A DNA stretch of 64,000 bases, taken from positions 62,001-126,000 of the forward strand of contig JAUIAH010000008.1 of the NCBI GenBank assembly GCA_030425385.1, read 5' to 3'. This document shows positions 29,072-46,558 of this stretch, piece by piece. Within the stretch, counting starts at the first letter, position 1, and every line of letters begins with the position of its first letter. This DNA is from Verrucomicrobiia bacterium. Lineage in GTDB: Bacteria; Verrucomicrobiota; Verrucomicrobiia; Verrucomicrobiales; DEV007. The notes beneath the pieces are model-generated. The model was not told the origin of the DNA. It saw only the letters and a program-made list of their open reading frames with translations, and did not search any database. The position numbers and the translations under genes were made by a program.

Positions 29072-30106
29072 CTAAGACACAGCCCGTGGCCTTCGCAAAT
29101 CTACCAGCCCACGCCATCCGGCTATCCCTGGGGAACGCAAAGCCCGCGCTCCACGCCTCCGTTTCACGCGCATCTGCTCCCGATGCCTGACAAACACCTC
29201 TTCCACGAAGGCCTCACTCCCTAGGGCCAACCCCTCACTGAAATAGCGCACCCGCACCCGCACCACCTGAGCTAAGCTCAATCGTCCGCCTTGCCGTTTC
29301 ACCTTCTCAACCGCGCCTCCACTCATGCCGAGGCGCGCTTTCCCACCCCCCTCTGGAGCCGGCTGACCCTCTTCTCCCAACCCGTACAGATAGCGCCGAT
29401 ACTGCGCCTGACACGTTCGCCACTGCTGCTGCCCCCCGTGCTCGATCCCTAACACCCGCATCAAGCCTCGACGCCGCGCTCTATTCCCCGCGACAGCCTC
29501 CCCATAGCTGCTCCACCGATAATCCTTCGGATCTTCCACAATCCCCGCCCTCACCGGATTCAGATCGATGTAAGCCGCCATCGTCAGCAACACCGTCTCG
29601 TCATTCTCTAACAACACACTCTTAAACCGATCCTCCCAAAGCGGCCCCTTGCGCTGAACCTTCTTGTTATACCACTGCGTGAAGCGCTGCTTTAGCTCCT
29701 TCATGAACATCGACACATCCGCCATCCGGTCTAGAAAGCGCTGCCGATACTCCGGATATCCCTTCTCAGGACACTGCTCCTTCATCCGCGCTAACATCTG
29801 CCGCACCTCGATCAACTGCTCCTCGGAGCGCGTCACCAGTGCCAGCCGCCGCAGCAATTCTGCATCATCAATCGCGGCGCGATGTTCCTCCGCATTCGGC
29901 ACCTCGATCAGAAGATGGATGTGGTTCGACATGATACAAAAGCAAATCAACTCCACCCCCGCAAACCCGCACTGGATCTCCAGCAGTTCTCGAAATTTCT
30001 CTTTCACCGGCCCCTCAAGCACGAAGCGCCCTTCAATGATCCGAGACATCACGTGGTAACAGTTTGAAGCCGCGCCAGCATCTCCCTTGATTCTAACCGA
30101 TCTCAT
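29072..30106 (-). mobile_element. REP-associated tyrosine transposase (RAYT, Y1_Tnp)
   Basis: A 344-residue single-gene transposase of the IS200/IS605-like HUH type. The metal-binding HUH motif is 'IMSNHIHLLIE' (~58-68). The region 'MKELKQRFTQWYNKKVQRKG' (~135-155) carries the catalytic tyrosine, and 'GPLWEDRFKSVLLEN' with 'YIDLNPVRAGIVEDPKDYRW' are typical of RAYT proteins. The C-terminal extension is Arg-rich. RAYTs act on REP palindromes rather than moving as full insertion sequences. No flanking IS ends are seen; a perfect 10-base palindrome lies 38 bases upstream of the start (30144-30166). The protein seems intact. Confidence 0.85.
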
Positions 30107-30224: not shown

Positions 30225-33200
30225 ATGCTGATTCCCCGATTTCTTTCCTCCCTTGTCTTGCTGAGCACGGGCGCGACGCTGCATGCCGTGCCTGATTTGG
30301 TGGCTCATTGGCCGCTGGACGCTCTCACAGATGGTCAGGTGTCTGACATCAGTGGCTCCCATGGCCTCGACGCCTCCGGGTTGAGTTCGGCAGATCTGAT
30401 CCCTGGTCGGCATGGCCAGGCGGTCGCCTTCGATGGTTCCCGAGAGACCCTCCTGGCGCGCACACACGCCGCGGATGATCGCCTTCCCATCAGCCAATAC
30501 GAAGCTTTTAGCGTCAGCCTCTGGGTGCGCGGTCAGGGGCAGGGCCAGGACGATCTGCGCGTCTTCTCCGAAGCCAGTTCGGCAAGTAATACGCCTCTGT
30601 TCAACATCGGGACTGATCAATCCGGAAACTCACGCGTGGTGGATATCTACATTCGACCGGGAGCCGGTCATCGCCTTTCAGATGCCAACGCTTTCGACAA
30701 TGCCTGGCACCACCTTGCTTGGGTTCAGGATGGAAACAGCGCCACTCTCTACATTGATGGCACGGCCGACGGCGCTTCCTTTGAAGCCGCAAGCGGTCTG
30801 GATGTCGATATCACGTCTATTGGGGGGATTCGGCGTTCGGGAGGCGATTCCCATTGGTTCACAGGAGGCATCGACGACGTCTCGCTCTGGGAGGGAGCGC
30901 TCACCGCAGACGAAGTGGCTCGGTTGGCCAGCGGTGAAACACCGCAGCAATTGACGGGCGAGGAATCGAACGGAAACGGCGGAGAGGAGCCGACTGATCC
31001 CACGGACTTCGTCGCTGAGGGCGATCATCTTCGGATCATGGAGTTCCTGGCCTCGAACCAGAGCCAATTGGCTGATGGCAACGGGGACTATTCCGACTGG
31101 CTTGAACTGTGGAATCCGACGGGCGAAGCCATCCAACTGGAGGGGCATTTCCTCACCGATGCCGAAGGCGAAACCTCCTGGGTATTTCCATCCGTGATCA
31201 TGGAGCCGAACGAGCGCCTGATTATCTGGGCTTCCGGCACCGGAAACAGCACCGTCGATGAACTCCACACAGATTTCCGGCTCTCGAGAGATGCGGGGGG
31301 CTACATCGCTCTGATTGCTCCCGATGGAACCACCGTGATCGATGCCATCGCCAACTACCCGCGGCAGCGCTCGGATGTTTCCTACGGCTACGATACCAAT
31401 GATCAGTTAGCCTATTTCCCCGCCCCTACTCCGGGCGAGAAGAACAACTCAGCGATCGCAGGTTATGTGCAAGACACACGCTTTTCGGTCGATCGCGGTT
31501 TCTACGACGAACCCTTCGCTCTCGAAATCACCACGGACACGGAAGGCGCATCCATCTATTACACGACCGACGGGAGCGAACCCACCCAGCCCTCACTCTT
31601 TAAACCAGCTAATGGAACGCTCTACGAAGGGCCGATTCAGATTGCGACGACAACGACCATCCGTGCCAAGGCCTTCAAGGCAGGTTTCCGCCCCACTGAC
31701 ATCGACACACAGACTTATCTCTTCATCAACGACGTCACGAAACAACCTGCGCAGCCTGAAGACTGGCCGGAGGATTGGGGGCGGAATGGTGAAGTGCCAG
31801 GACGAGTGGTGGCGGACTATGAAATGGACCCCCGTGTGGTCGATCATACAGAGGAAGGCTATAGCGTCCGTGAGGCCCTGCTCGATATCCCTACCCTTTC
31901 CATCGTGATGGACCGCGATGATTTCATCGGTTCCAATGGGATCTATACGAATCCACAATCACGGGGCGCGGACTTTGAAAAGCCCTGTTCTCTCGAACTC
32001 ATCTATCCCAATGGAGACACTGGATTTCAGGTTGATTGCGGTGTGGAAGTACACGGAAATTCCAGTCGGCGCCCCTGGCGGATGCAGAAGCACTCTCTGC
32101 GCGTGTCTTTCAAAAGCGTTTATGGTGTTTCCGTTCTTAATTACCCACTGATCGAGGGATCGCCGATCGAATCCTTCAATAAAATCGTTCTCCGCGCCTG
32201 TTTCACTGATAGCTGGGGACTGGTGAGCTGGGGACCTTCTCGCTACCGCCCGAACGATTCCCAATACATCCGTGACATGTGGATGAAACATTCCATGCGT
32301 GACATGGGGCACGATTCCTTGGATGGCACCTTCATGCATCTTTATGTGAACGGGCTGTATTGGGGGCTCTTCAATCCTGCCGAGAAGATGGAAGCCGAAA
32401 GTCTGGTGACCCACTTGGGTGGACAGGAAGGCGACTACGATGTCATTGACGACTTCACGCTTCCTCCTATCGATGGGAATGTGGCAGGATGGAACAGGAT
32501 GCACCAGCTTTCTCGAGAAGATCTCGATGAAGAAAGCAACTACCGTGCACTAGCAGAAGTGCTGGATCTGGAAAACTTCGCCGACTACATGCTTCTCCAC
32601 TTCTTTGGAGATGCCGAAGATTGGCCACACCACAATGGTCATGCGATGAGCAATCGCGGCGCGAATGGGCCTTTCCAGTTCTATGTCTGGGATCAAGAAA
32701 TCGCTTTGGATAATCTCCAAATGAAACGCTACGATTCCGCTGACGCAAATCGCCCCGGAGGCTTGTTCCAGCAATTGCGCGATAGCGAAGAATTCCAGCT
32801 CCTCTTTGCCGACCGCGTGCAGAAACACCTCTTCAATGACGGTGCGCTCACCGTGAAAGCTTGTCAGGACCGCTACATGGCCCTGGCCAATCGAATCGAC
32901 AAAGCCATCGTCGCGGAATCGGCCCGCTGGGGAGATACCCAGGAGAGCACGCCCTATGGCAATACCATCGATCAACCGCGCGATCCCAGCGACGTAGACG
33001 ACTTGGCTTATCCGGGCAACTTGCAGGGCTATTTCACACGCGAGAATTCCTGGGTCATCGAGCGCGACAATGTCGTGAACCACTACATCCCCACCATTCA
33101 CGACCTTTCCAACAACAATAGCATCTTTAATGAATTGGAAGATGCCGATCTCTGGCCGAACACCAAAGCCCCTAGCTTCAGCCAGCATGGCGGAATGGTG

Positions 33201-34367
33201 CCGGAAGGGTATCTGCTAGAAATTGAACCCAATGGTGGCTTTCGCGGTTCGGACGCATTCTACTACACGATGGATGGCAGTGATCCCCGTCTATGGGGAG
33301 GCGATATTTCCCCTACGGCCACTGCCTACACGCCCTCCACAGAAGGCATCCCACTAACAGAATCCGTGACCATTCGAGCGCGGTTGCTGAGCAAATCAAA
33401 TCCTTTCTTGCTCAAGGGAGAATGGAGTCCTCTCATTGAAGCTACTTTCCGAGTCGGCAGTTACGCTAGTCCCTCCGCGCTCCAAGTGAGCGAGATCATG
33501 TATCAGCCCGCGCTCCCTTCCGATGAGGAGGTCGCAGCGGGCTTTCAGAATCGCCGCGACTTCGAATTCCTGGAATTGGTCAACACGAGCTCGAACAAGA
33601 TCTTGCTTGAGGGCCTGCAGATCAGTTCGGGACTCACCGTCAGTTTCCCTGAAGGACCAAGCGCTGAAGTAGGTCCTGGCGACGTTATCCTCTTAGTGGC
33701 GAACCGTGAGGCCATGGCAGTCCGTTACGGAGAGAACCTGCCAATCGTGGGTGTCTTTGAACGATCAAGCCAATTGGCCAATAATGGAGAAGCCATCGCT
33801 CTAGCAGATGCCTCTGGAATGGAGATCTGGCGCTTTGCCTACAATGACGCGGAGGATTGGCCGCAGGAGGCGGATGGCGCTGGTCACAGCTTGGAGAATG
33901 CTGCTCCTGGAAGCGGAGGCGATCTCAATGAGCCCACGGCGTGGAAAGCCAGTGCTCAGGTAGGCGGCACGCCTGGTTCCACGGGATCGGTCACGACGCC
34001 TACGGGCGGCTATGCCACCTGGCGGGCTGCGCAATTTGGCGACGATGCCAGTGACGCTTCTGTCAGTGGTCCGCTTGCGGATCCTGATGATGATGGCTTT
34101 CCCAATCTCCTTGAGTACGGCCTGGGGATGTCACCACTCGCTCCCTCCACCCCGGAGGTTCAGGTGACTCAGGAAGGCGATACCACCACCGCTCGCTACG
34201 TGCGCGTCCCAGGCATCACCGACCTCGATTGGGCAGCGGAACAGTCTAGCGACTTGGAAAACTGGGACACCCTTGAGCCCACCCTCAACGAAACCGACTT
34301 GGAGGTTTCCTTGCCCAGCGGTCCAAATCGTCAGTTCCTTCGCTTGCGGGTCACGCCGATGCCTTGA
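30225..34367 (+). CDS. Secreted multidomain CotH-kinase protein with LamG and lamin-tail domains
   Basis: A 1380-residue exported protein. Order: signal peptide (1-21), LamG/concanavalin-like domain (~25-240, 'LVAHWPLDALTDGQVSDISG' and 'WHHLAWVQDGNSATLYIDG'), lamin-tail domain (~267-400), chitobiase/hexosaminidase C-type beta domain (~419-500, 'ASIYYTTDGSEPTQPS'), CotH kinase domain (~545-900) with 'GVEVHGNSSRRPWRMQKHSL' (~605) and a 'VWDQE' metal-binding motif (~818), a second 'FYYTMDGSDP' domain (~1010), a second lamin-tail domain (~1085-1210) and a DPDDDGFPNLLEY calcium loop (~1286). The carbohydrate-binding folds suggest surface attachment. It is the neighbour of the NRPS-PKS gene, separated by one small membrane-protein gene. 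Confidence 0.85.
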   Translation: MLIPRFLSSLVLLSTGATLHAVPDLVAHWPLDALTDGQVSDISGSHGLDASGLSSADLIPGRHGQAVAFDGSRETLLARTHAADDRLPISQYEAFSVSLWVRGQGQGQDDLRVFSEASSASNTPLFNIGTDQSGNSRVVDIYIRPGAGHRLSDANAFDNAWHHLAWVQDGNSATLYIDGTADGASFEAASGLDVDITSIGGIRRSGGDSHWFTGGIDDVSLWEGALTADEVARLASGETPQQLTGEESNGNGGEEPTDPTDFVAEGDHLRIMEFLASNQSQLADGNGDYSDWLELWNPTGEAIQLEGHFLTDAEGETSWVFPSVIMEPNERLIIWASGTGNSTVDELHTDFRLSRDAGGYIALIAPDGTTVIDAIANYPRQRSDVSYGYDTNDQLAYFPAPTPGEKNNSAIAGYVQDTRFSVDRGFYDEPFALEITTDTEGASIYYTTDGSEPTQPSLFKPANGTLYEGPIQIATTTTIRAKAFKAGFRPTDIDTQTYLFINDVTKQPAQPEDWPEDWGRNGEVPGRVVADYEMDPRVVDHTEEGYSVREALLDIPTLSIVMDRDDFIGSNGIYTNPQSRGADFEKPCSLELIYPNGDTGFQVDCGVEVHGNSSRRPWRMQKHSLRVSFKSVYGVSVLNYPLIEGSPIESFNKIVLRACFTDSWGLVSWGPSRYRPNDSQYIRDMWMKHSMRDMGHDSLDGTFMHLYVNGLYWGLFNPAEKMEAESLVTHLGGQEGDYDVIDDFTLPPIDGNVAGWNRMHQLSREDLDEESNYRALAEVLDLENFADYMLLHFFGDAEDWPHHNGHAMSNRGANGPFQFYVWDQEIALDNLQMKRYDSADANRPGGLFQQLRDSEEFQLLFADRVQKHLFNDGALTVKACQDRYMALANRIDKAIVAESARWGDTQESTPYGNTIDQPRDPSDVDDLAYPGNLQGYFTRENSWVIERDNVVNHYIPTIHDLSNNNSIFNELEDADLWPNTKAPSFSQHGGMVPEGYLLEIEPNGGFRGSDAFYYTMDGSDPRLWGGDISPTATAYTPSTEGIPLTESVTIRARLLSKSNPFLLKGEWSPLIEATFRVGSYASPSALQVSEIMYQPALPSDEEVAAGFQNRRDFEFLELVNTSSNKILLEGLQISSGLTVSFPEGPSAEVGPGDVILLVANREAMAVRYGENLPIVGVFERSSQLANNGEAIALADASGMEIWRFAYNDAEDWPQEADGAGHSLENAAPGSGGDLNEPTAWKASAQVGGTPGSTGSVTTPTGGYATWRAAQFGDDASDASVSGPLADPDDDGFPNLLEYGLGMSPLAPSTPEVQVTQEGDTTTARYVRVPGITDLDWAAEQSSDLENWDTLEPTLNETDLEVSLPSGPNRQFLRLRVTPMP

Positions 34368-34378
34368 ACAATGCCCCG

Positions 34379-34720
34379 ATGATCTACTGGCTTGCTGGTG
34401 CCCTTGCGCTCGAAATTGTGATCGTCATCACGGGGCTCCTCATGCATGGCCCCTATCTGCGCCATCTGAGGCACCACCATCGCCCTCTTTGGGAAGACAT
34501 CAGCCGCAAAGCCCCTCGCCGCTGGCGCTATTTCAAGGGGATGCCAACCACAGGACTCCTCATCAGTAGCTTCATCGGCAATCCGGCTTACAAGGCAGAC
34601 GAAGAGCGTGGCAAACTGTGGATGGGACGGATCATCGTGGCTCTCAACCTCCTCCACCTTGTCATTCTGGCTGCCGTCGTGCTCCTCGGTGTGTGGGTCT
34701 TTGCCCTCGGAGGCCCGTAA
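34379..34720 (+). CDS. Small membrane protein, unknown function
   Basis: A 113-residue protein with hydrophobic segments at ~2-20 and ~82-110, and a His/Arg-rich stretch between ('HGPYLRHLRHHHRPLWEDIS'). ATG 34379 is preferred, 11 bases after the CotH stop; a TTG at 34364 overlaps that stop. I do not recognise the family. The close spacing suggests co-transcription with the CotH gene upstream. Confidence 0.6.
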   Translation: MIYWLAGALALEIVIVITGLLMHGPYLRHLRHHHRPLWEDISRKAPRRWRYFKGMPTTGLLISSFIGNPAYKADEERGKLWMGRIIVALNLLHLVILAAVVLLGVWVFALGGP

Positions 34721-34798: not shown

Positions 34799-37700
34799 AT
34801 GCCGTCCGACTTGCGTTCCCCCATCGCTGACTCGCCTCTTGCCCTCTTAGAGCGCTGGAATCCCGCGCCTGTCACAACGTTCTTCTCTTATTCGCCCAGC
34901 GAAGTGTTCACGCTTCACCGGCGGTTTGAAGCCCAGGCAGATGCGACTCCCGATGCGATCGCCGTGACGTTTGAAGGGGAGGACTGGTCTTTCCGAGAAC
35001 TAGACGAGCACGCCAATCACATCGCTCGCACCTTGCGGGACTATGGCCTAGGACCAGACAAGCTCGCGGGGCTATACTTGGAACGCGGTCCGGCCCTGAT
35101 CCTCGCGATTCTTGCCATTCACAAGGCCGGAGGGGCCTACGTGCCTCTAGATCCCTCCCACCCGACCGAGCGTCTCCAAGCGATTGCTGAGGATGCGGGC
35201 GTGACGGTGATGGTGACCCAATCGTCCCTGGCGCAACAGCTCGCCGTGCCGGAGGCAGCCACCATTCTGTTAGACCCACGGACGGCGCTCATGACAGAAC
35301 GGGAGACCGAGCGTTTGGCGACTGTTGGCGTGCATTCGCGTCACCTCGCCTACCTGATCTACACATCGGGATCCACAGGGAAGCCCAAGGGCGTCGAGAT
35401 CACGCATCATTCGGCGGTGAATTTAGTGCTCGCCACACACGAACAGCTAGGCCTTCAGGCGGGAGAAGCCATGCTAGCCATCACCACGGTGTCTTTCGAT
35501 ATCTCAGTGCCGGAAATCTATCTCCCGCTCATGACTGGAGTGCGCATGGTATTGACTCCGCGAGGCATGGGTGCCGATGGTGAGAGCTTTGCCGCGGTGT
35601 TAGAGCACGAGAATATTCGCTTCGCGCAAGCCACCCCGACTACCTGGCGATTGGTCTTGGCCACCGGTTGGAAAGGGAAAGCCGATCTGAAGATCGTCAG
35701 CACTGGGGAAGCGATCGACCGCGAGCTCGCCAATCAGCTCGCGCCCATGTGCGAGGAGCTTTGGAATTTCTACGGTCCCACCGAGACGACCGTGTGGTCC
35801 TCCTTCGCCCGCATGCACAAGGAAGAAGGCCCTATCCTGATTGGGTATCCCGTCGCTAACAATCGCCTCTATATTCTCGACGAGCATTTGCAACCGTTAG
35901 GAGTAGGCGAAACGGGTCGTCTCTTCATCGGTGGCGAAGGCTTGGCTCGCGGCTATGCCAATCGCCCCGAGCTTACGGCTGAGAAGTTCATCCCCGATCC
36001 CTTTGTCGATGATGACGCCGCCCGCATGTATGATACGGGGGACTTAGCGCGTTGGATGGCCGATGGCCAAGTCGAATGCCTCGGTCGGGTGGATCACCAA
36101 GTGAAGATCCGTGGCTACCGCATTGAGCTCGGCGAAATCGAATCCGTGATCAAGCAGCACCCCAGTGTGGGAGATGCAGTCACCAACGTCTTCAAAGATG
36201 CTTTTGGCGAGCCGCAGCTCATTGGCTACACGGTGCCTGCCAATGGTGCTGCTCCAGAATCGGAAGAACTACGCTCCTTTCTCAGTAGCAAGCTTCCCGA
36301 CTACATGGTTCCAATTGCTTTCGAACCGTTGGCGAAGTTGCCCATGACGCCCTCACAGAAGGTCGATCGCAAGGCCCTTCCAAAGCCAGCCATTCTGGAT
36401 AAAACGTCAGAGCCTGTCGCTCTCGAAGGCACCGCAGAAGAGGTCATCACGCGCATCTGGGCATCTGTGTTAGGCAAAGAAGGGCTCTCAGCAGAGGATC
36501 ACGTTTTTAAGTTAGGCGCTCATTCTCTTCACGTGGCGCGGGTGCATGCACAATTGAGACAGGCGTTTCCCAAGAAGATCACCATTGCCCAGCTCTTTCA
36601 GTATGGGACGCCGGCTGCCTTAGCACCCTATTTCGAGACGTCCGCAAACAAACGCCTGCACGTGAGGACGCAGAATGCCGTGAACACCTCACGCGACATC
36701 GCCATCATTGGCATGGCAGGACGTTTTCCCAAGTCTCCCAATCTGGATGCCTACTGGGCTAATCTCCGCGACGGTGTGGAGTGCATTCGCGACTATGCTG
36801 AAGACGATCTGATCGCCGCGGGCGTTGGGCCCGAAGTCTATCGGGATCCTCGCTATGTCAGTCGCGGTTGTGATCTTGAGAGGCACGAGCAGTTTGATGC
36901 GGGCTTCTTCGAGATGAGCCCGATCGAGGCGAAGCTTACAAACCCACAACATCGGATCTTTCTCCAAGCAGCTTGGGAAGCACTGGAACACGCGGGCTAC
37001 GCAGCCAGCCGATTTGAGGGTGCCATCGGCCTCTATGGAGGCGCTGGGCACAACCGGTACGCGCACCGTTTGGAAACGGAACCCGGTGTGCAGTACCTGC
37101 AATTACTGGTCGGCAACGAGCACGATTACCTCACCACTCGCACCGCCTTTAAGTTAGGTTTGCGAGGACCCGCCCTCAATATTCAGACGGCGTGTTCCAC
37201 CTCTCTGGTCGCCATTCACGAAGCCTGTGATGCGCTCATCAGCGGGCAATGTGACATGGCGCTGGCTGGCGGCGTCTCTCTCGCGTGGCCGGAAGGGCGC
37301 GGCTATCTCTACGAGGAAGGGATGATCTTTTCCAAGGACGGACATTGTCGCGCCTTCGATGCAAACGCGACGGGGACGGTCTTCAGCCCCGGGGTTGGCA
37401 TCGTCGCCTTGAAGCCTCTCGCCCAAGCGTTAGAGGATGGTGATTCCGTCCATGCGGTCCTCCGTGGCATCGCGATCAACAATGATGGTAACCGCAAGGG
37501 AAGCTTCGCCGCGCCGAGCATCGAAGGGCAAGCCGAGGTGATCGCCGAGACGCTTGCTCAACAGCAAATCGATCCAAGCACCATCAGCTATGTCGAGGCG
37601 CACGGCACGGGAACAGTGGTAGGCGATCCCATCGAGGTTGCCGGCCTCACCCAGGCTTATCGCGAACACACGAGCAAGTCTCAGTACTGTGGCCTTGGAT

Positions 37701-40700
37701 CGGTGAAGACAAATATCGGGCACACTGATTCCGCCGCTGGAGTTGCCGGGCTTCTCAAAGTGGTGTTGGCCATGAAGCACAAGCAATTGCCTCCGAGCTT
37801 GAACTTCGAAACACCGAATCCCGATCTCCAACTCGAGGACAGTCCGTTCTATATCCAGACATCATTACAAGAGTGGCAATGTGAGGGGCCACGGCGTGCC
37901 GCTCTCAGTTCGTTTGGCCTAGGCGGCACCAATGCTCACGCGATTCTAGAGGAGGCTCCGGAAACAGCACCCTCTGGCTCCATCTCCCGCCCCTATCATT
38001 GTTTCCCATTCTCCGCTCGCACAGAGAAAGCGTTAGAAGGGCTCCTCGATAAATGGCCATCTTTCCTGGAGGATCAGCCTGACCTCTCCCTTCCCGATGC
38101 GGCCTACACCCTGCAGGTGGGAAGGACAGACTTTGAAAGCCGAGCCTTTGTCGTCGCCCGCGACCACAGCGAACTGCAAGCCCGCCTGGGAGAGAAGCGA
38201 AGCATTCGTCTACCGGCCCCCCCGAAGAAACGCCGTGCCATCTTCCTCTTCACCGGACAAGGTGCTCAGTACACGGGCATGGCGCGGGAGTTAACCTTCA
38301 CGGAGCCGGTCTTCGCCGCAGCCCTTGACGAATGCAGTGATCTATTGGAACCCCACCTGGGATTGCGCTTGGTGGACGCCCTCTACCCACCCGAAGGTTC
38401 CCCCCCAGCTGATCTGAATCAAACAGCCTTGGCGCAGCCAGCCCTCTTCGCCATTGCCTACGCGCAGGCAAGGCTATGGATGCAATGGGGCATCGAGCCC
38501 GTGGCGATGTTAGGCCACAGCATCGGTGAATACGTCGCCGCGACTCTGAGCGGTGTCTTCTCGTTGGAAGAGGCACTGCGTTTGGTCGCTCGTCGCGGGG
38601 CGCTCATGCAGTCGATGGAGCCAGGCGACATGTTGGCCGTCAGTCTCCCCGTCCACGACGTGGAGACTCTGCTCAGCGATCATCCTGACATTGATCTAGC
38701 CGCTTCCAACAGTCCCCGGCTTACCGTAGTGGCTGGGCCTACTCAGGCCATCGCCGTCTTCCAATCTGCGGTTGAGGTAGCGGGCCATCGGGCGCGGCTT
38801 CTCCATACTTCGCACGCCTTCCACTCAGCCATGATGGAGCCGATGTTAGGAGAATTTGAAGCCCTCGTAGCAGAGACGACGCGTTCCGCACCGGGCATCC
38901 CTTACCTCTCCAACGTCACAGGCACGTGGATCACGCCCGAAGAAGCGACTTCCCCTCACTACTACGCTCGCCATGTGCGCGGCACTGTTCGCTTTGCCGA
39001 AGGGCTACGCGTGATCCTGGAGAAGCATCCAAATTGCCTTCTGTTAGAAATGGGCCCCGGTCGCACTTTGGCTACCTTGTCCAGTCATCAGATCACGGAT
39101 CCGAAGGCAACGATCGCTCTTCCCACGCTCCCCGGCCCCAAAGACGAGGCTGAAGCCTCTGCCTATGTGATGGAAGCGTTAGGCAAGGTTTGGGCAAGTG
39201 GGCAGGCCATTGACTGGCAGGCCTTCTACGCCGAAGAGGATCGACGGCGCATCCCATTACCTACCTATGCTTGGCAGGAACGTCCCTATCTCCTCGATCG
39301 CGAAGAGACGATCGAAGCCGCTCTCCAACCCAAGCGCGAGACGGATTTGCAACACTGTGCTTACGTGCCGGTTTGGCAACAAGCTCCACCACAAGCACTC
39401 GCCGAATCAGGACCGGAAGATCTCACAGGCACATGGATCTTCGTTAGACCCAGGAAGGAACCTCCATGGCTCGCCCCCTTTGCCGCACACCTGGAAGCCT
39501 GCGGCGCGCGGCTCCTCTCGAAATCGGTAGATACCCTCGCCGACTCCGTCGGAGATTGGGTGGCGACGGCTCTTGAGAACGATGATCTCGCGGGAGTGAT
39601 CCACGCGGGCGCGCTGGGAAGCGCGGGCATGGAGGACGGTTTCTGGCCGCTCTTTCACCTTGTTCAAGCCCTCGGCAGCAAAGCGTTAGATCGTCAACTA
39701 AGGCTGTTCACGCTCACGGATGCCACTCTCGCTGTGCATTCGGGAGAACGGATTCTTCCTGACAAAGCCACACTCATTGGCCTCTGTGGCGTGATTGATC
39801 AGGAATACACGCATTATCGGAGCCGCTGTCTCGATGTGGGCGAACAACCGCATTTCAAGACGCTCCTCGCCGCCCTGAAAGACGACTCTGGGCAACCACT
39901 GGCAGCGGTGCGGCATCGGCATCGCTACTGGCGCCGCTTCGAACCGGTCACGCTTCCGGAAACGCGTGAGACCCGGCCGCTGAAAGATGGGGGCACCTAC
40001 CTCATCACCGGTGGACTTGGCGGCCTTGGTCTCACCATAGCTCACCACCTGGCGACCAGCGTGAAGGCTCCCACCCTGCTTTTGTTAGGCCGCTCGCCCC
40101 ACCCTGCTAAGGAGGGAAACCAAGAGCGTCTAGACGCCATTCAGGCCTTGGAAGATCGCGGTGCCAAGGTGGACTATGCGTCCGTGAATGTGGCCGATGC
40201 AGACGCACTCGCAGCGTGGTGGCACGCACACGGCCACGTGGATGGGATTGTCCACACAGCTGGCCAATTGTCTGACGGCATCATTCAGCTGAAGGACGCG
40301 AAGGCCATGCAGCCAGTGCTCGATAGCAAGGCCACAGCCGCAACACACCTGTTAGCCCTATCAGAGAAACAAGCGGGAGGTGCGCCTGATTTCATCGCGC
40401 TTTTCTCGTCCATCAGCGCTCTCCTCAACACCCCTGGACAGTCCGACTACTGCGCGGCCAATGCCGTCCTCGACGCCCTGGCATTTGAGGCTCAGCAACG
40501 CGATCTCCCGGTCATTTCCATCAATTGGCCTGCCTGGCGCGACACCGGGATGGCTGCCCGGATGCAAGTGGCGGGCATGCGCGATGATGAGTATCAGGCC
40601 ATGATGACCTACGCGCTCTTTCCCGATGAAGGAGCCGCAATGCTTTTACGAGCGTTAGAGCATCGCGAAGTGGCCCCGCAATTCGTGGTCTCCACGCGCC

Positions 40701-41950
40701 CCTTTCAAGAGCACTACGAAGAGGAAGCCATCCTCACACAAGCACTGATTGAGGAAGCCACGGTGGCGCCCGAAACCTGTGGCGCTGAGGACAATGCGGA
40801 TCTCACCGAGTCCGAACGGAGTATGCTGGGCATCTGGCGCGATGCCTTCTCGAATCCCCAGCTGACTCTTGACGACGACTTCTTCCAGTCCGGAGGCGAT
40901 TCCCTCTTGGCGGTTGGCTTGTTCACTCGGATTGAACGAACTTTCGAACAATCCCTTCCCCTCTCCGCGCTCTTCGACGCGCCAACGGCCAGGCAATTGC
41001 TCGCCGTCGTGCGTCCTGAAGAACGTGCGTTGCCTTTGGCTGCCGAATCCGCACAAGATGCAGGGCCAGATTCGGAGAGCGCGCTGGCCACTCCAACCTC
41101 GGCGCCCCATTCAAAAGCACCTCAAGCGTCCATCCCTCCTCATGTCATCGCGCTCACAAAGGCGGGATCGGGCACCCCTCTATTTGCCTTTCATGGGGCA
41201 GATGGTGGCGTGTTGTTCTATCGGGAATTCGCCCAAGCGCTGGGCGACCAGCGCCCATTCTACGCCGTGGAGGCCCCCATGCTGCGCGACCTTGCACTGG
41301 AACCCCTCCCCACGGTTGAAGCCATCGCAACGGCCTATTTGAAGGACATCCGCGCTGTACAACCGAAAGGACCCTACGTGCTCGGTGGATACTCCTTTGG
41401 CGGCACCCTTGCCTACGAAATCAGTCAGCAACTGCGGGCCGAGGGCGATGACGTGGCCATGCTGTTCCTCTGGGACGTTCCCAATCTACAAGTGCCTCCT
41501 CGCAAACTCGGAATGACGGAGCGCATTCACACGCATTGGCGACGGCAATCTGGAAATAGCGTCTCTCGGCTGGGAGCGCTCACCAAGCGAGCCTTTCAGG
41601 GAGCGGCCTGGAAGGTCCAACACGAATGGGAGAACCGCTCTGCCTCCAAGCAGGGCGCGGCGGAGAAAGCAGGCGTCGGCGAATACTACCGTCATGTCCA
41701 GGCACGCATCGCTCATGAAGCGCGGATGGCTCTCTATGTGCCCAAGCCATACGCGGGTCCCGTCCGGCTCTACGTCGCCGACGACCGCGGGGACAAGTTT
41801 GAGTTCCAACCCGATCTAGGTTGGAGAGGACTCTTCACGGGCGATCACGACATCCTGCCAGTGACTGGCGAGCATTTGGAAATCTTCCGCGGATCAAACC
41901 TCCCGATCATCGTTGAAGCCACGGCTGGCGTCTTGCGGGCGTTGGGATAA
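34799..41950 (+). CDS. Hybrid NRPS-PKS megasynthase (A-PCP-KS-AT-KR-ACP-TE)
   Basis: A 2383-residue cytosolic megasynthase. Adenylation domain (~40-535): A3 'YTSGSTGKPKG' (~188), FDISVPE, 'NFYGPTETT', 'YDTGDLARW' and lysine 'SQKVDRKAL'. Peptidyl carrier: LGAHSL with Ser576. Ketosynthase: Cys799 (TACSTS), His935, His975. Acyltransferase: Ser1241 (GHSIGEY) and HAFH (1339-1342), the malonyl-CoA signature. Ketoreductase: GGLGGLG (~1738) and Tyr1884; the 'LSD' motif points to a B-type reductase. Acyl carrier: GGDSL with Ser2035. Thioesterase: Ser2199 (GYSFGG). No condensation, dehydratase or enoylreductase domain. With no C domain, the A domain probably loads an amino acid starter that is extended by one malonyl unit, reduced and released, giving a statine-like gamma-amino-beta-hydroxy acid or its lactam (inference). 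No phosphopantetheinyl transferase is seen nearby. Confidence 0.92.
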   Translation: MPSDLRSPIADSPLALLERWNPAPVTTFFSYSPSEVFTLHRRFEAQADATPDAIAVTFEGEDWSFRELDEHANHIARTLRDYGLGPDKLAGLYLERGPALILAILAIHKAGGAYVPLDPSHPTERLQAIAEDAGVTVMVTQSSLAQQLAVPEAATILLDPRTALMTERETERLATVGVHSRHLAYLIYTSGSTGKPKGVEITHHSAVNLVLATHEQLGLQAGEAMLAITTVSFDISVPEIYLPLMTGVRMVLTPRGMGADGESFAAVLEHENIRFAQATPTTWRLVLATGWKGKADLKIVSTGEAIDRELANQLAPMCEELWNFYGPTETTVWSSFARMHKEEGPILIGYPVANNRLYILDEHLQPLGVGETGRLFIGGEGLARGYANRPELTAEKFIPDPFVDDDAARMYDTGDLARWMADGQVECLGRVDHQVKIRGYRIELGEIESVIKQHPSVGDAVTNVFKDAFGEPQLIGYTVPANGAAPESEELRSFLSSKLPDYMVPIAFEPLAKLPMTPSQKVDRKALPKPAILDKTSEPVALEGTAEEVITRIWASVLGKEGLSAEDHVFKLGAHSLHVARVHAQLRQAFPKKITIAQLFQYGTPAALAPYFETSANKRLHVRTQNAVNTSRDIAIIGMAGRFPKSPNLDAYWANLRDGVECIRDYAEDDLIAAGVGPEVYRDPRYVSRGCDLERHEQFDAGFFEMSPIEAKLTNPQHRIFLQAAWEALEHAGYAASRFEGAIGLYGGAGHNRYAHRLETEPGVQYLQLLVGNEHDYLTTRTAFKLGLRGPALNIQTACSTSLVAIHEACDALISGQCDMALAGGVSLAWPEGRGYLYEEGMIFSKDGHCRAFDANATGTVFSPGVGIVALKPLAQALEDGDSVHAVLRGIAINNDGNRKGSFAAPSIEGQAEVIAETLAQQQIDPSTISYVEAHGTGTVVGDPIEVAGLTQAYREHTSKSQYCGLGSVKTNIGHTDSAAGVAGLLKVVLAMKHKQLPPSLNFETPNPDLQLEDSPFYIQTSLQEWQCEGPRRAALSSFGLGGTNAHAILEEAPETAPSGSISRPYHCFPFSARTEKALEGLLDKWPSFLEDQPDLSLPDAAYTLQVGRTDFESRAFVVARDHSELQARLGEKRSIRLPAPPKKRRAIFLFTGQGAQYTGMARELTFTEPVFAAALDECSDLLEPHLGLRLVDALYPPEGSPPADLNQTALAQPALFAIAYAQARLWMQWGIEPVAMLGHSIGEYVAATLSGVFSLEEALRLVARRGALMQSMEPGDMLAVSLPVHDVETLLSDHPDIDLAASNSPRLTVVAGPTQAIAVFQSAVEVAGHRARLLHTSHAFHSAMMEPMLGEFEALVAETTRSAPGIPYLSNVTGTWITPEEATSPHYYARHVRGTVRFAEGLRVILEKHPNCLLLEMGPGRTLATLSSHQITDPKATIALPTLPGPKDEAEASAYVMEALGKVWASGQAIDWQAFYAEEDRRRIPLPTYAWQERPYLLDREETIEAALQPKRETDLQHCAYVPVWQQAPPQALAESGPEDLTGTWIFVRPRKEPPWLAPFAAHLEACGARLLSKSVDTLADSVGDWVATALENDDLAGVIHAGALGSAGMEDGFWPLFHLVQALGSKALDRQLRLFTLTDATLAVHSGERILPDKATLIGLCGVIDQEYTHYRSRCLDVGEQPHFKTLLAALKDDSGQPLAAVRHRHRYWRRFEPVTLPETRETRPLKDGGTYLITGGLGGLGLTIAHHLATSVKAPTLLLLGRSPHPAKEGNQERLDAIQALEDRGAKVDYASVNVADADALAAWWHAHGHVDGIVHTAGQLSDGIIQLKDAKAMQPVLDSKATAATHLLALSEKQAGGAPDFIALFSSISALLNTPGQSDYCAANAVLDALAFEAQQRDLPVISINWPAWRDTGMAARMQVAGMRDDEYQAMMTYALFPDEGAAMLLRALEHREVAPQFVVSTRPFQEHYEEEAILTQALIEEATVAPETCGAEDNADLTESERSMLGIWRDAFSNPQLTLDDDFFQSGGDSLLAVGLFTRIERTFEQSLPLSALFDAPTARQLLAVVRPEERALPLAAESAQDAGPDSESALATPTSAPHSKAPQASIPPHVIALTKAGSGTPLFAFHGADGGVLFYREFAQALGDQRPFYAVEAPMLRDLALEPLPTVEAIATAYLKDIRAVQPKGPYVLGGYSFGGTLAYEISQQLRAEGDDVAMLFLWDVPNLQVPPRKLGMTERIHTHWRRQSGNSVSRLGALTKRAFQGAAWKVQHEWENRSASKQGAAEKAGVGEYYRHVQARIAHEARMALYVPKPYAGPVRLYVADDRGDKFEFQPDLGWRGLFTGDHDILPVTGEHLEIFRGSNLPIIVEATAGVLRALG

Positions 41951-42053: not shown

Positions 42054-42926
42054 GTGAGTACTCCAAATCAACCCTCCGGCAAGACATCCCTGGAACCCCT
42101 GGGGCCGAGCCGGAAAGGGGTGAAGGACCAGGTCATTGAGCGGTTCGAGCAGAAGTACATCGTCCATCCCGCGATCGTCCCCAAGATTCGGGAGTTCATC
42201 AAACCATTCTGCATTCCAGATCCCAACGGGAAAGGCGCCGTTCCTGAATACACCGTCACCACGCTCCAGTTGGACACGCCGACGATGGATCTCGCTTTGG
42301 CGAAGGAGCGCAAGACATTCGCACGGTTCAAATTACGCATTCGCACCTACGGGACGAAGCCCGAGCATCCCGTCTTCTTCGAGCTGAAGCGGAAGGTGAA
42401 TAACGTCATCATCAAGAGCCGCGCCAAGATGACATTGGGACAGTATTATAGCGGTCCTTTCCACGGCTATATCGTCGTCAATCCGAACGAGGCGCCCATG
42501 CTCAAGACGCCCAAGGATAACAACAATTTCCTGGAGTATTGTCGATTGGTGCACCGGCTCAATGCGCGTCCCAAGATGCTCATCAAATACGTACGCGAGT
42601 CGTATTTCGGAGCCAATGATGACTACGCACGCGTCACGTTCGACCGTCGGATTTGCTATCGTCCTACACGTCAGTGGACGATTCCGGTCGAAGATGATGG
42701 CGAGCTCTGGCGCCCAATGGACACGCAGATGGGTCTCAATCGCCCCTTTGCCGGCTATATCTTCGAGTTGAAAGCGATGAAAGATTCCCCCCGCTGGATG
42801 CTGGAATTGGTCGAGCGATTCAACCTCCAAACCACGGGCTTTTGCAAATACGCCACCGCTTGGCGGCTGGAGACCATTTATCGAGGCTTCGAATACTCCG
42901 TCCAGTCGGAGAATACGACGTATTAG
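42054..42926 (+). CDS. VTC-domain polyphosphate polymerase-like protein
   Basis: A 290-residue protein with the VTC/TTM tunnel fold: 'ERFEQKYIVHPAIVPKIREF' at the N terminus, then basic strands 'FARFKLRIRTYG' and 'PVFFELKRKVNNVIIKSR', 'ARVTFDRRICYRP' and 'FAGYIFELKAMKDSPRWMLE', ending in 'TGFCKYATAW'. In yeast Vtc4 the equivalent Arg/Lys/Glu residues bind nucleotide, metal and growing polyphosphate. Bacterial members are often paired with DUF4956, as here. The start is GTG 42054. It is 103 bases after the NRPS-PKS stop and heads a three-gene operon. Polyphosphate synthesis is inferred from the fold. Confidence 0.85.
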   Translation: MSTPNQPSGKTSLEPLGPSRKGVKDQVIERFEQKYIVHPAIVPKIREFIKPFCIPDPNGKGAVPEYTVTTLQLDTPTMDLALAKERKTFARFKLRIRTYGTKPEHPVFFELKRKVNNVIIKSRAKMTLGQYYSGPFHGYIVVNPNEAPMLKTPKDNNNFLEYCRLVHRLNARPKMLIKYVRESYFGANDDYARVTFDRRICYRPTRQWTIPVEDDGELWRPMDTQMGLNRPFAGYIFELKAMKDSPRWMLELVERFNLQTTGFCKYATAWRLETIYRGFEYSVQSENTTY

Positions 42927-42989
42927 GAGGCATAATTCGATTGACCGCAGAACACCCACTACTGACTCTCACCGACGACTGACACGCCG

Positions 42990-43673
42990 ATGGAATCCTT
43001 TCTCACCTCTCTAGGCCCCAGCAAAGCGCTGGCACCAATTGAAATCTTCTTCTCCCTCTGCATGAGTTTCGTGCTGGGGATGACCATTGCCACGGTCTAT
43101 CGTTACACCCATCAGGGCTTCACCTACGCCCGCTCCTTCCTTCACACCATGGTCTTGGCAACCATTGTCATCACCATCATGATCATCGCCATCGGCAATA
43201 ACCTCGCTCGGGGCCTTGGGATCATGGGAGCCATGGCGTTTGTCCGTTTCCGGACACCCATTCGTGATCCTCGTGACATCATCTTCCTCTTCTGCGCCCT
43301 GGCAGTGGGCATTGCCTGCGGATCGCAGGTCTACAATGTCGCCTTAATGGGCACGGCCTTCTTCAGCTTTGCCGCGTTCTTTCTCATGTGGTCCCCGTTT
43401 GCCTCTCGACGAGAATTCGAGGGCCTGTTGCGGTTCCTCTTGCCGCCGGAGTCTGATACTCAGAACCTGATCGATAATGTCTTCCAGCGGTACACCACCC
43501 ATACCGAACTGGTCGCCATGCGCGAAGCCATCCAAGGTGAGGTGCTTGAGTATTCCTATAGCATTCGTCTGATCGACCCGAGCTACAAGACGGACCTTGT
43601 GGATGCCTTGGGCAAACTTCCCGAGATGTCGGAGGTGAGCCTCGTCATGCAGCGCACCACGGTGGAAATCTAA
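42990..43673 (+). CDS. DUF4956 membrane protein
   Basis: A 227-residue protein with about four transmembrane helices in the first 130 residues, the conserved 'GIMGAMAFVRFRTPIRDPRD' (~76-96) that identifies DUF4956, and a soluble C-terminal domain ('LVAMREAIQGEVLEYSYSIR'). DUF4956 is frequently encoded beside VTC-domain polymerases and is thought to act with them at the membrane. It lies 63 bases after the VTC gene and 25 bases before the HlyD gene. Confidence 0.88.
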   Translation: MESFLTSLGPSKALAPIEIFFSLCMSFVLGMTIATVYRYTHQGFTYARSFLHTMVLATIVITIMIIAIGNNLARGLGIMGAMAFVRFRTPIRDPRDIIFLFCALAVGIACGSQVYNVALMGTAFFSFAAFFLMWSPFASRREFEGLLRFLLPPESDTQNLIDNVFQRYTTHTELVAMREAIQGEVLEYSYSIRLIDPSYKTDLVDALGKLPEMSEVSLVMQRTTVEI

Positions 43674-43698
43674 CCTTTGGACCCAGGAGAGCCCTTTC

Positions 43699-44856
43699 AT
43701 GAGCGCTGAAACGCCTTCCATTCCCAATCACAAGCTGCAAAAGCGGATCATGCGGCGCAAAGCCATCCGCGAGAGCTGGCCCTTGCTCGTCTGGCTGGGC
43801 ATCGCTGCCCTCGCCGTGTGGGCTTACAAGACCGGCGGCGAGTTCCATCGCATGCGCGGCATCGTGTCGAAACCCGTCCAAACCATTGCCGCCCCCTACG
43901 CGGGCACGCTGGTGCCCGTGCCGACGGACAATGTTGACATCCCAGCACCGACCAATGACGACGGGACACCGAAAGCTCTCCAGCAAGGGACTTTCGTGAA
44001 TCAAGGGCGCGCCGTGGCGATGCTCGATACGAGCGAGCTGCAATTGGAGATCAAAGCGGAGGAACAGAATGCTACCTTTGAGCGCGCACAATTGCAGCAG
44101 CAACTCGGGCAGCAAGTTCTGGATTACCAGGCCATGATTCCTCAATTGGAAGCGGAAGAAGACCGGATTCAAAGCGAACTTGAAGCCAAACGCAAGGTCC
44201 TGCCATCAGTGAGGAAGAATGTGGAGGATAGGAATGCTCTCCAGTCCGAACTCGATCTCTTGCAAAGTGAGATTGATACCCTGGTTGGTGAGTTAGCCTC
44301 CGCCAAGCGCGTCACCGACAACACCCGCGGACTCGTGGACTCCTCGCTTGAGAATATCACGAAGCTTCAGGAGCAAATCGACACCCCCATGGAAGAGAAT
44401 GCGAAGGTGAATCTTCTCAAAGAACGCATCAAGCGCTCTGTCATCACCACCCCCAACGCGGGCTTTGTAGACAAGATCTACGCGCAGCCAGGCACCTTCG
44501 TCCGCGAAGGCGATCCCATCATGGACGTCGTCGTGCAAGCTCCCAAGACGATCACGGCGCTTATTCCGGAAGCCGAGGCCCTCAACGTCACGCAGGGCGA
44601 CACGGTCTACATTTCCATACCCAACAACCGCAAAGAGTATGTCACCGCAACGGTCGAAACCTTGCAGCAGTCGCTTTCGCAGATTCCAGATTATGCCAGC
44701 CCCATTCGCGGCCGCATGGTCCGCGGACGCTTGGTGGAATTTGGCAATCTTGGGGGCGGTGAAGACAGCCAGCTTCCCCTGCTTCCGGGTTCCGAAGTGA
44801 TCGTTTCGCTCGATCCTCCCGGCCGGATTCCCTTCCTCTCGTGGTTCACGCAGTAG
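43699..44856 (+). CDS. HlyD-family membrane fusion/adaptor protein
   Basis: A 385-residue protein: cytosolic basic N terminus, one transmembrane helix (~27-45), a biotinyl-lipoyl-like half motif ('IAAPYAGTLVPV'), a long alpha hairpin (~108-245, rich in Gln/Glu with 'LQSELDLLQSEIDTLVGEL'), and a beta-barrel part with 'VITTPNAGFVDKIYAQPGTF'. This is the HlyD/EmrA type of periplasmic adaptor. No ABC or MFS partner or outer-membrane channel is nearby. As the third gene of the VTC-DUF4956 operon it may link the polymer or another substrate to the envelope (inference). Its 3' end overlaps the convergent symporter gene by 11 bases. Confidence 0.85.
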   Translation: MSAETPSIPNHKLQKRIMRRKAIRESWPLLVWLGIAALAVWAYKTGGEFHRMRGIVSKPVQTIAAPYAGTLVPVPTDNVDIPAPTNDDGTPKALQQGTFVNQGRAVAMLDTSELQLEIKAEEQNATFERAQLQQQLGQQVLDYQAMIPQLEAEEDRIQSELEAKRKVLPSVRKNVEDRNALQSELDLLQSEIDTLVGELASAKRVTDNTRGLVDSSLENITKLQEQIDTPMEENAKVNLLKERIKRSVITTPNAGFVDKIYAQPGTFVREGDPIMDVVVQAPKTITALIPEAEALNVTQGDTVYISIPNNRKEYVTATVETLQQSLSQIPDYASPIRGRMVRGRLVEFGNLGGGEDSQLPLLPGSEVIVSLDPPGRIPFLSWFTQ

Positions 44857-46558
44857 CCGCTGCAGGGGGTGCCGATTTGCGGGGAATAAGGACTCCGCAA
44901 AGGAAGGTGAGGATGGTCGTCAACGGCCAGGTCCACACAAAGGTGAACTTGGATTTCAAGCCACCTTCGGGCGTGTAATCGTAAGTGGGCAGATTTCCGA
45001 GCCAAGCATGGAGTTCCTCACTGCGCCCAAAGAGAATCCACACATCCGTGCGCACCAAGAGCACGATGAGGAAGGAGATCACCGTGCCAATGATCAAGCC
45101 GCGCACGCTTCCCTTCCCTAGCATTGCGACGAGAAAGATGGCCAGCATGGGCCCCACCGTGTAACTCGTCATGCCAAAGGCGAGTGGAAGGATCGGAATA
45201 TTCTCGCGCACCGCCAGCATGAGGTAGGTGAAGAAGGTGAGGACGATTCCCCACCCCACCACCAAGAGTCGCGATTTCCCCACGAGCGATGGATCATCCG
45301 CCGCCACGCCGTCATCACTTTCCGGATGATAGATCAATGACAGAGTCGTTTGGCTCAGCGCCGCTAGAATGCTGTCCAGGCTGGAAATGGCTGCGGCAAA
45401 GACTCCCGCCAGCAACAGCCCACTCAGCCCCGCGGGAAGCATCGACACAATCCACATGGGGAAGATGGCATCCGCATCTTTCGGCACGTGCACATTGCTC
45501 TCCACGCCGTCCTGGCTCGTCGCCAAGGGGGCCTCCTCCATGATCTGCATGGAAGTCATGTCGTCCTTGGCAGGAAAGGCCACCGCAGCCTCATACTCAT
45601 TGAAGGGATGCTGGTGATAGTGCACGAAGAGGGCCGCCCCCACCATCAACATGAGGAAGGTCACCAATTGCCCAGCCGAACTGAAGATGATCGCCTTCCG
45701 CGCTGCGGACTCACTCCCGCAACAGAAGACCCGCTGGGCACAGAGTTGATCCACGCCAAACATGGTCAGGTTCTGAAAGGTGACCGCAAAGAGCGCCACC
45801 CACATGGTGAACTGCAGCTCCGCACCGATCCCAAACGTCCAGTCGAAGGTCGTGGTGCGATCGAACGCCTTAGCCGTCGACCACAGCTCCCCCATTCCGC
45901 CAGGCAAACTGTTCACCACCGTGAAGAGAGCGATGATCCCGCCGATCGTGAAGAGGAAGAATTGCATCACGTCCGTCCAAATCACCGTTCGCATGCCCCC
46001 CATGAGGGTCCATCCAATGGCGAAGAGCCCGATAATGATGATGCAGATCCGGATATCCAAGCCTGTCACCACCTTTAGAGGCAACGCCGCCACCAAGACC
46101 CGAACACTCTGCGCCAGGATGGATCCGATGAAGAAGAGCACGGTCGCCAAGGTCTTGGCGCCCCTACCCAACCGATTCCCCATGTAGTCGTAGGAACTGT
46201 ATATTTCCCGCTCATAGTAGGCCTTCACGAACCATACCCCCACGATCACCCGCGCGAGAATCGACCCAATGGCCCACTGCATGTAGGTGAAATCGCCCTG
46301 AGCGGCGAAGAGACCCGCAGGCACGCCAATGAAAGTCACGCCACTGAGTTCGGTCGCGATGATGGACCCCGAGACGGCCGGCCACGGCAGGGTCTTGCCT
46401 CCCAGAAAGAAATCGCGAATCGATGCCTGCTTCCCGCGCATCAAGTGCCCGATGACAGTGCAGAAGATGAGGTAACCAAAGAGCACTCCCCAATCGAGCG
46501 GGGTGAAGAGTTGAGCGATAGGTTTCTCAGCCATGGGCGGGACGTTCATGGAGAGCAT
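44846..46558 (-). CDS. Sodium/solute symporter (SSS family)
   Basis: A 570-residue transporter with about 13-14 transmembrane helices. The SSS family signature is visible in 'IRDFFLGGKTLPWPAVSGSI', 'ATELSGVTFIGVPAG', 'GNRLGRGAKTLATVLFFIGS' and 'AGLSGLLLAGVFAAAISSLD', with the sodium-site serines in the last motif. It uses the sodium gradient to import a solute, perhaps a sugar; the substrate is not predictable. A hydrophilic insertion of about 45 residues lies near residues 320-365. ATG 46558, 46549 and 46534 are all possible starts. It is convergent with the HlyD gene (11-base overlap) and divergent from dnaA across the candidate origin. Confidence 0.88.
   Translation of the reverse strand: MLSMNVPPMAEKPIAQLFTPLDWGVLFGYLIFCTVIGHLMRGKQASIRDFFLGGKTLPWPAVSGSIIATELSGVTFIGVPAGLFAAQGDFTYMQWAIGSILARVIVGVWFVKAYYEREIYSSYDYMGNRLGRGAKTLATVLFFIGSILAQSVRVLVAALPLKVVTGLDIRICIIIIGLFAIGWTLMGGMRTVIWTDVMQFFLFTIGGIIALFTVVNSLPGGMGELWSTAKAFDRTTTFDWTFGIGAELQFTMWVALFAVTFQNLTMFGVDQLCAQRVFCCGSESAARKAIIFSSAGQLVTFLMLMVGAALFVHYHQHPFNEYEAAVAFPAKDDMTSMQIMEEAPLATSQDGVESNVHVPKDADAIFPMWIVSMLPAGLSGLLLAGVFAAAISSLDSILAALSQTTLSLIYHPESDDGVAADDPSLVGKSRLLVVGWGIVLTFFTYLMLAVRENIPILPLAFGMTSYTVGPMLAIFLVAMLGKGSVRGLIIGTVISFLIVLLVRTDVWILFGRSEELHAWLGNLPTYDYTPEGGLKSKFTFVWTWPLTTILTFLCGVLIPRKSAPPAAATA

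Follow-up and report, generated by a model that had tools for sequence, protein, structure and literature searches.

The closest described design is that of SwnK, the fungal swainsonine synthase (A-T-KS-AT-KR-ACP-R; PMC8403587, PMC5473758). SwnK is a single protein that takes one amino acid without a condensation (C) domain, adds one malonate and reduces the beta-ketone, and the bacterial protein described here, encoded within a window of 64,000 nucleotides (the whole stretch of DNA analysed), likewise carries A-T-KS-AT-KR-ACP in one chain without a C domain. SwnK ends in a thioester reductase, whereas the C-terminus of the window protein is a PF00975 thioesterase, and the fungal gene is clustered with genes for oxygenases, reductases and a transporter, with no such cluster around the bacterial gene. 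Statine and isostatine modules sit within longer assembly lines. In didemnin, burkholdac, hapalosin and thalassospiramide an NRPS module followed by KS-AT-KR-ACP gives a 3-hydroxy-4-amino acid; the KR route to statine units is reported as not verified (PMC12081711). The window protein also has an A-PCP pair feeding KS-AT(malonyl)-KR-ACP, but stands as a complete protein, and its pocket is glycine-like, whereas the didemnin starter is larger (Ile). The product predicted here, 4-amino-3-hydroxybutyrate (GABOB), occurs in microsclerodermins (PMC3826127), where it is part of a cyclic peptide that a PKS/NRPS line of many proteins assembles (PMC6163206).

Hybrids of an AMT type (A-PCP-KS-AT-...-AMT-C-A-PCP-TE, about 3400-3900 aa) are found in the same bacterial family. 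They share the A-PCP-KS-AT order and their hosts with the window enzyme but have an aminotransferase in place of the KR, valine-like codes and a second NRPS module; a domain HMM scan of the window protein gave no AMT match. These hybrids were seen at loci L040-L045, L047 and L048, and NRPS-PKS matches occur in many of the family genomes searched. A literature search for the literal term A-PCP-KS-AT-KR-ACP-TE found no paper, which does not by itself prove that none exists.

We read the window gene as encoding a stand-alone, self-priming NRPS-PKS, a probable GABOB maker reduced from a longer assembly line, with a probability of roughly 57%. The fuller proposal, a one-gene bacterial route from glycine, malonyl-CoA and NADPH to free GABOB or its lactam that arose by way of an eroded C domain with intermediates surviving in relatives, is put forward tentatively, at odds somewhat short of even. 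A protein that uses a single substrate, extends and reduces it once and releases the product itself would be about the simplest system for testing in vitro, and a homologue series with a full, a half and no C domain would be a record of an NRPS module becoming self-starting.

Domain organization of the window protein

The gene is one uninterrupted ORF with an ATG start (Table 1), along which Pfam finds the order A-PCP-KS-AT-KR-ACP-TE with E-values of 1e-78 to 1e-25; a chance explanation of the ORF and its domain order is out of the question. The initial annotation had described a 2383-residue protein of this architecture lacking a C domain, with its catalytic residues visible. Both points are borne out: the Pfam scan found no C domain in the protein, and all eight residues named sit in their expected motifs. 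The same eight are kept in the homologues, the sole exception being the thioesterase nucleophile of a paralogue, which is Cys. Inactive domains on alignment had been named as grounds for giving up the proposal; every catalytic motif is intact. Pfam detects two PP-binding sites, and of the 25 top-ranking NCBIfam models TIGR01733, for generic amino acid adenylation domains, was alone in passing its cut-off.

The HAFH motif in AT domains denotes malonyl-CoA, and its presence indicates that the AT of the window protein uses this extender, in agreement with the single malonyl extension first proposed. The domain order and motifs agree equally with the self-starting A domain, single ketoreduction and TE release of the same proposal.

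Table 1. Features of the megasynthase gene and of the genes adjoining it (window coordinates; catalytic motifs in brackets)
Feature	Position	Strand	Basis or remark
Hybrid NRPS-PKS megasynthase gene, 2383 aa	34799..41950	+	Single ORF, domain scan, full-length homologues
C-A interdomain linker remnant LLERWN, residues 16-21, N-terminus	34844..34861	+	Aligned with LLETWN/MLETWN-type motif of four homologues
Adenylation (A) domain, residues 43-521	34925..36361	+	PF00501/PF13193; AMP-binding at residues 43-386, 1e-78; AMP-binding_C also matched
Peptidyl carrier protein (PCP), Ser576 (LGAHSL)	36431..36628	+	PP-binding; HMM built here
Ketosynthase (KS), Cys799 (TACSTS), His935 (EAHGTG), His975 (NIGHTD)	36692..37978	+	PF00109/PF02801; ketoacyl-synt at residues 632-877, 6e-65; C-terminal half at 885-1004
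Acyltransferase (AT), Ser1241 (GHSIG), malonyl-type HAFH motif	38240..39088	+	PF00698; Acyl_transf_1 at residues 1148-1412, 5e-50
KR structural subdomain, residues 1520-1725	39356..39973	+	Alignment; equivalent region of homologues matches PF21394
Ketoreductase (KR) catalytic domain, Tyr1884 (SDYCAAN), LSD replacing B-type LDD	39992..40543	+	PF08659, KR alignment; KR at residues 1732-1915, 9e-43
Acyl carrier protein (ACP), Ser2035 (GGDSL)	40829..41014	+	PP-binding
Type I thioesterase (TE), Ser2199 (GYSFGG), His2358	41174..41923	+	PF00975; Thioesterase at residues 2127-2373, 3e-27
VTC-DUF4956-HlyD-like operon	42054-44856		Adjoins megasynthase
HlyD-like gene	43699-44856		Within 5 kb of megasynthase
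Sodium:solute symporter	44846-46558	-	Within 5 kb of megasynthase

Predicted substrate and product

The pocket code of the A domain, read from an alignment, is DIPQVTFVWK (D234, I235, P238, Q277, V300, T302, F324, V332, W333 and K521). Aspartate at the position of GrsA D235 marks an alpha-amino acid substrate, and D234 fits such a substrate. When the pocket segment was compared with the PDB, only three sequences were found at 1e-15: 4zxh (AB3403) and 5u89 (DhbF), both glycine-activating enzymes (PMC11253843), and 8www, for which a literature search found nothing. In DhbF a Trp that forms a hydrogen bond with a Gln occludes the pocket (PMC11253843). Gln277 and Trp333 of the window A domain lie at the aligned, presumably matching, places. 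The corresponding codes are DITQMGFVWK in the paralogue and DILQLGLVWK in a basal homologue (G003), the latter being what we take to be a classic glycine code. Glycine is favoured as the most likely substrate, because the pocket best matches glycine enzymes and the Gln/Trp pair is retained.

The main doubt on glycine comes from Thr302, which stands where glycine codes have Gly (the GrsA-301 position). A Thr there is atypical of such codes, so the substrate may instead be alanine or some other small residue. An enzyme that is just as much a stand-alone one, with an A domain that takes Ala, Ser or a non-proteinogenic residue and so gives a 4-substituted statine-like acid, seems to us somewhat unlikely. 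Pro238 also falls outside the classic glycine code, the codes DPKFLGVIFK and DVPNMGEVFK in the same clade imply that specificity drifts in the family, and promiscuity can occur in A domains for small residues, IdnL7 among them (PMC11253843); against this, the closing Gln/Trp pair is kept, and Phe324 together with Thr302 should shrink rather than enlarge the pocket. The statine-like unit suggested by the initial annotation fares worse, as statine proper needs a leucine-type pocket and that of the window protein, judged from sequence, is small and glycine-like (PMC11253843): its code, with the Gln/Trp closure, is not that of a Leu/Ile-type A domain.

The KR has LSD in the place of the LDD of B-type domains and lacks a Trp at the eighth position before the catalytic Tyr; by established KR typing this suggests a D-configured alcohol, which in GABOB would be (S). 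A gamma-amino-beta-hydroxy acid, the product class originally named, is expected from the domain order, with which it agrees, and GABOB or its lactam is our best guess at the product itself.

Relatives and loss of the condensation domain

Homologues were sought in 96 related genomes and later throughout the family; the class sample comprised 122 genomes. The 96-genome search found a paralogue in the source genome (G000:C24, 51% identity along the entire protein) as well as full-length relatives in G030 (44%), G057 (42%) and G003 (40%), to which the family-wide search added G101 and G110; the window gene is not unique. According to domain HMMs built here, the order A-PCP-KS-AT-KR-ACP-TE is common to the paralogue, G030, G057 and G110; G101 agrees with it up to the TE, where its contig ends, and in G003 the same order is preceded by AMT-C. 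A scan of GTDB-220 contigs with the protein gave no more than two relatives; their architectures differ from that of the window protein, and the closer one is a Mucilaginibacter AMT-type pair. On named public plasmids, A-PCP-KS-AT is matched at 37-46% by NRPS-PKS pairs from cyanobacteria and proteobacteria, which are for the most part separate genes.

Trees of KS and A domains, proposed earlier as a check, both place the KR-type enzymes in one region with the C-containing G003 protein basal, and pair the window gene with the paralogue (95/87 in the KS tree, 99/98 in the A tree). In the KS tree the window enzyme belongs to a set of 9 rows (99/96) that includes a contig-cut gene and one lacking KR. 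With the contig-cut G006 gene and the KR-less G035 gene falling in the region of the KR-type enzymes, the KR architecture does not strictly form a single clade there. L029 (5677-9816, minus strand), which falls in this region of the KS tree, encodes a KR-less KS-AT-ACP-TE protein. Pairwise dN/dS among the G030, G057 and G101 copies is 0.08-0.13, a rough figure with synonymous sites nearly saturated (dS 2-3), and on this ground the enzyme type, as represented by these copies, is under purifying selection.

The Cys nucleophile of the paralogue (L023, 8107-16059, minus strand) lies in the motif GYCFGG, where the majority of TEs in the set carry Ser (GYSFG or GYSYG); the TE of L038 (G009:C306) likewise reads GYCMA. 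As a Cys TE closes the beta-lactone in the obafluorin synthetase (PMC6668435), the paralogue may, by analogy, release a beta-lactone from a beta-hydroxy acyl chain.

About 200 residues precede the A domain in the paralogue, G030, G057 and G101. By profile comparison, these residues correspond to the C-terminal half of C domains (columns 187-427/428, probability 97.9, E 6e-13); an AlphaFold model of the N-terminal remnant of the paralogue had a pLDDT of 53, and the profile comparison was used in place of a fold search. The last 50-65 positions of the Pfam Condensation model are matched in G030 (7e-5) and G057 (7e-4). The HHxxxDG motif belongs to the missing half and is absent from the remnants of all four homologues; the basal homologue G003 retains a whole C domain. 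The window protein begins MPSDLRSPIADSPLALLERWN, inside the linker of LLETWN type that follows the C remnant elsewhere. Upstream of the ATG the frame stays open for 16 codons (2399 residues in all), and no further C remnant lies upstream of the ATG, where tblastn of the remnants matches only the linker. Since four homologues have half a C domain, the basal one has a full C domain and the window protein starts in the linker, we regard the absence of the domain, on these alignments, as a secondary loss. Parsimony on the tree would give the order full C, half C, none, and these proteins seem to form a small, stand-alone family descended, through C-domain loss, from a longer assembly line.

Genomic context and proposed route

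The megasynthase gene is flanked by CotH, VTC, DUF4956, HlyD, SSF and dnaA genes, with a CotH-LTD protein and then a 113-residue ORF upstream and VTC-DUF4956-HlyD downstream. The latter trio is intact in the congeners G001, G002 and G003 (VTC 87-90%, DUF4956 93-94%, HlyD about 55%); in G002 and G003 neither a megasynthase nor CotH lies beside it, and the G001 contig, which ends at VTC, shows only the operon. VTC-DUF4956 also occurs in more distant family members, independently of the megasynthase. When the ORFs were read by eye, no gene was common to the window locus and the loci of the paralogue, G030 and G057, the three copies compared. Named in the same way from translations, the neighbours are transporters and aroE around the paralogue, dfp-like and inositol-monophosphatase-like genes around the G030 copy, and an RNase R-like gene and a sulfatase around the G057 copy. 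A stand-alone unit is supported because the inspected copies share no neighbours and the operon is intact in congeners without the gene.

The claim that there is no conserved cluster thus holds, as no gene recurs beside the inspected copies. That no transporter adjoins the gene was too strongly put, the HlyD-like gene and the symporter lying no more than 5 kb away, though the former is part of an operon independent of the megasynthase. It is also correct that no phosphopantetheinyl transferase (PPTase) is encoded locally, with the qualification that the genome has an Sfp-like one of 267 aa, and an AcpS, away from the window gene. No MbtH-like protein was found in the source genome; many A domains work without one. 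The gene content hints at a host among the Verrucomicrobiota. A complete one-gene pathway, as first suggested, is plausible and supported by the genomic context.

That the enzyme instead serves a larger pathway as one of its arms, handing on its product or ACP-bound chain to enzymes encoded elsewhere, for instance the AMT-type megasynthase G000:C35, or receiving a starter that is N-acylated beforehand, we consider unlikely. The G003 unit comes after an aminotransferase-condensation segment, and in G138, a member of a different family in the class, A(Gly-like)-PCP-KS-AT-KR-ACP forms the first protein of a two-gene line (L075, 7687-19733); but the window protein has its own TE, and no partner gene recurs near the inspected copies. 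The TE might also form an oligomer, a cyclic diolide or dilactam, or another condensed product in place of the monomer. Macrodiolide-forming TEs are known, as for conglobatin (PMC4504003), and TE sequence alone does not discriminate, but nothing specific here points to oligomerisation, which we judge quite improbable. A decaying relic, with C-domain loss as pseudogenisation, would account for the N-terminal erosion relative to the homologues but is scarcely credible and was rejected, as the 7.1-kb frame and every catalytic motif are intact and the same order persists in other genomes under purifying selection.

In the stand-alone, self-priming route that we infer, with its substrate, single extension round, stereochemistry, release mode and independent role, an Sfp-type PPTase encoded elsewhere would activate both carrier domains, and the A domain would activate a small alpha-amino acid (glycine is the likeliest) and load it onto the PCP. 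The KS would accept the aminoacyl group for one condensation with malonyl from the AT, the KR would reduce the beta-ketone, and the TE would free a gamma-amino-beta-hydroxy acid, which with a glycine starter would be GABOB as the free acid or the 4-hydroxy-2-pyrrolidinone lactam. This product could be altered by enzymes encoded elsewhere. The ancestor would have been a C-A-PCP-KS-AT-KR-ACP-TE terminal unit of a longer line, with the C domain lost stepwise.

Several other features of the window may be mentioned. Two large CotH-kinase/lamin-tail-domain proteins are encoded at 21072-24578 and 30225-34367, the second just upstream of the megasynthase, from which it is separated by the hydrophobic 113-residue ORF (34379-34717), which has no Pfam match. 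A gene resembling REP-associated tyrosine transposases (29072-30106, minus strand; best NCBIfam match below cut-off) lies in a region with a strong GC skew (-0.37). Near dnaA/dnaN, at 52333-54081, this bacterial genome encodes a protein of the animal haem peroxidase family (E 8e-156).
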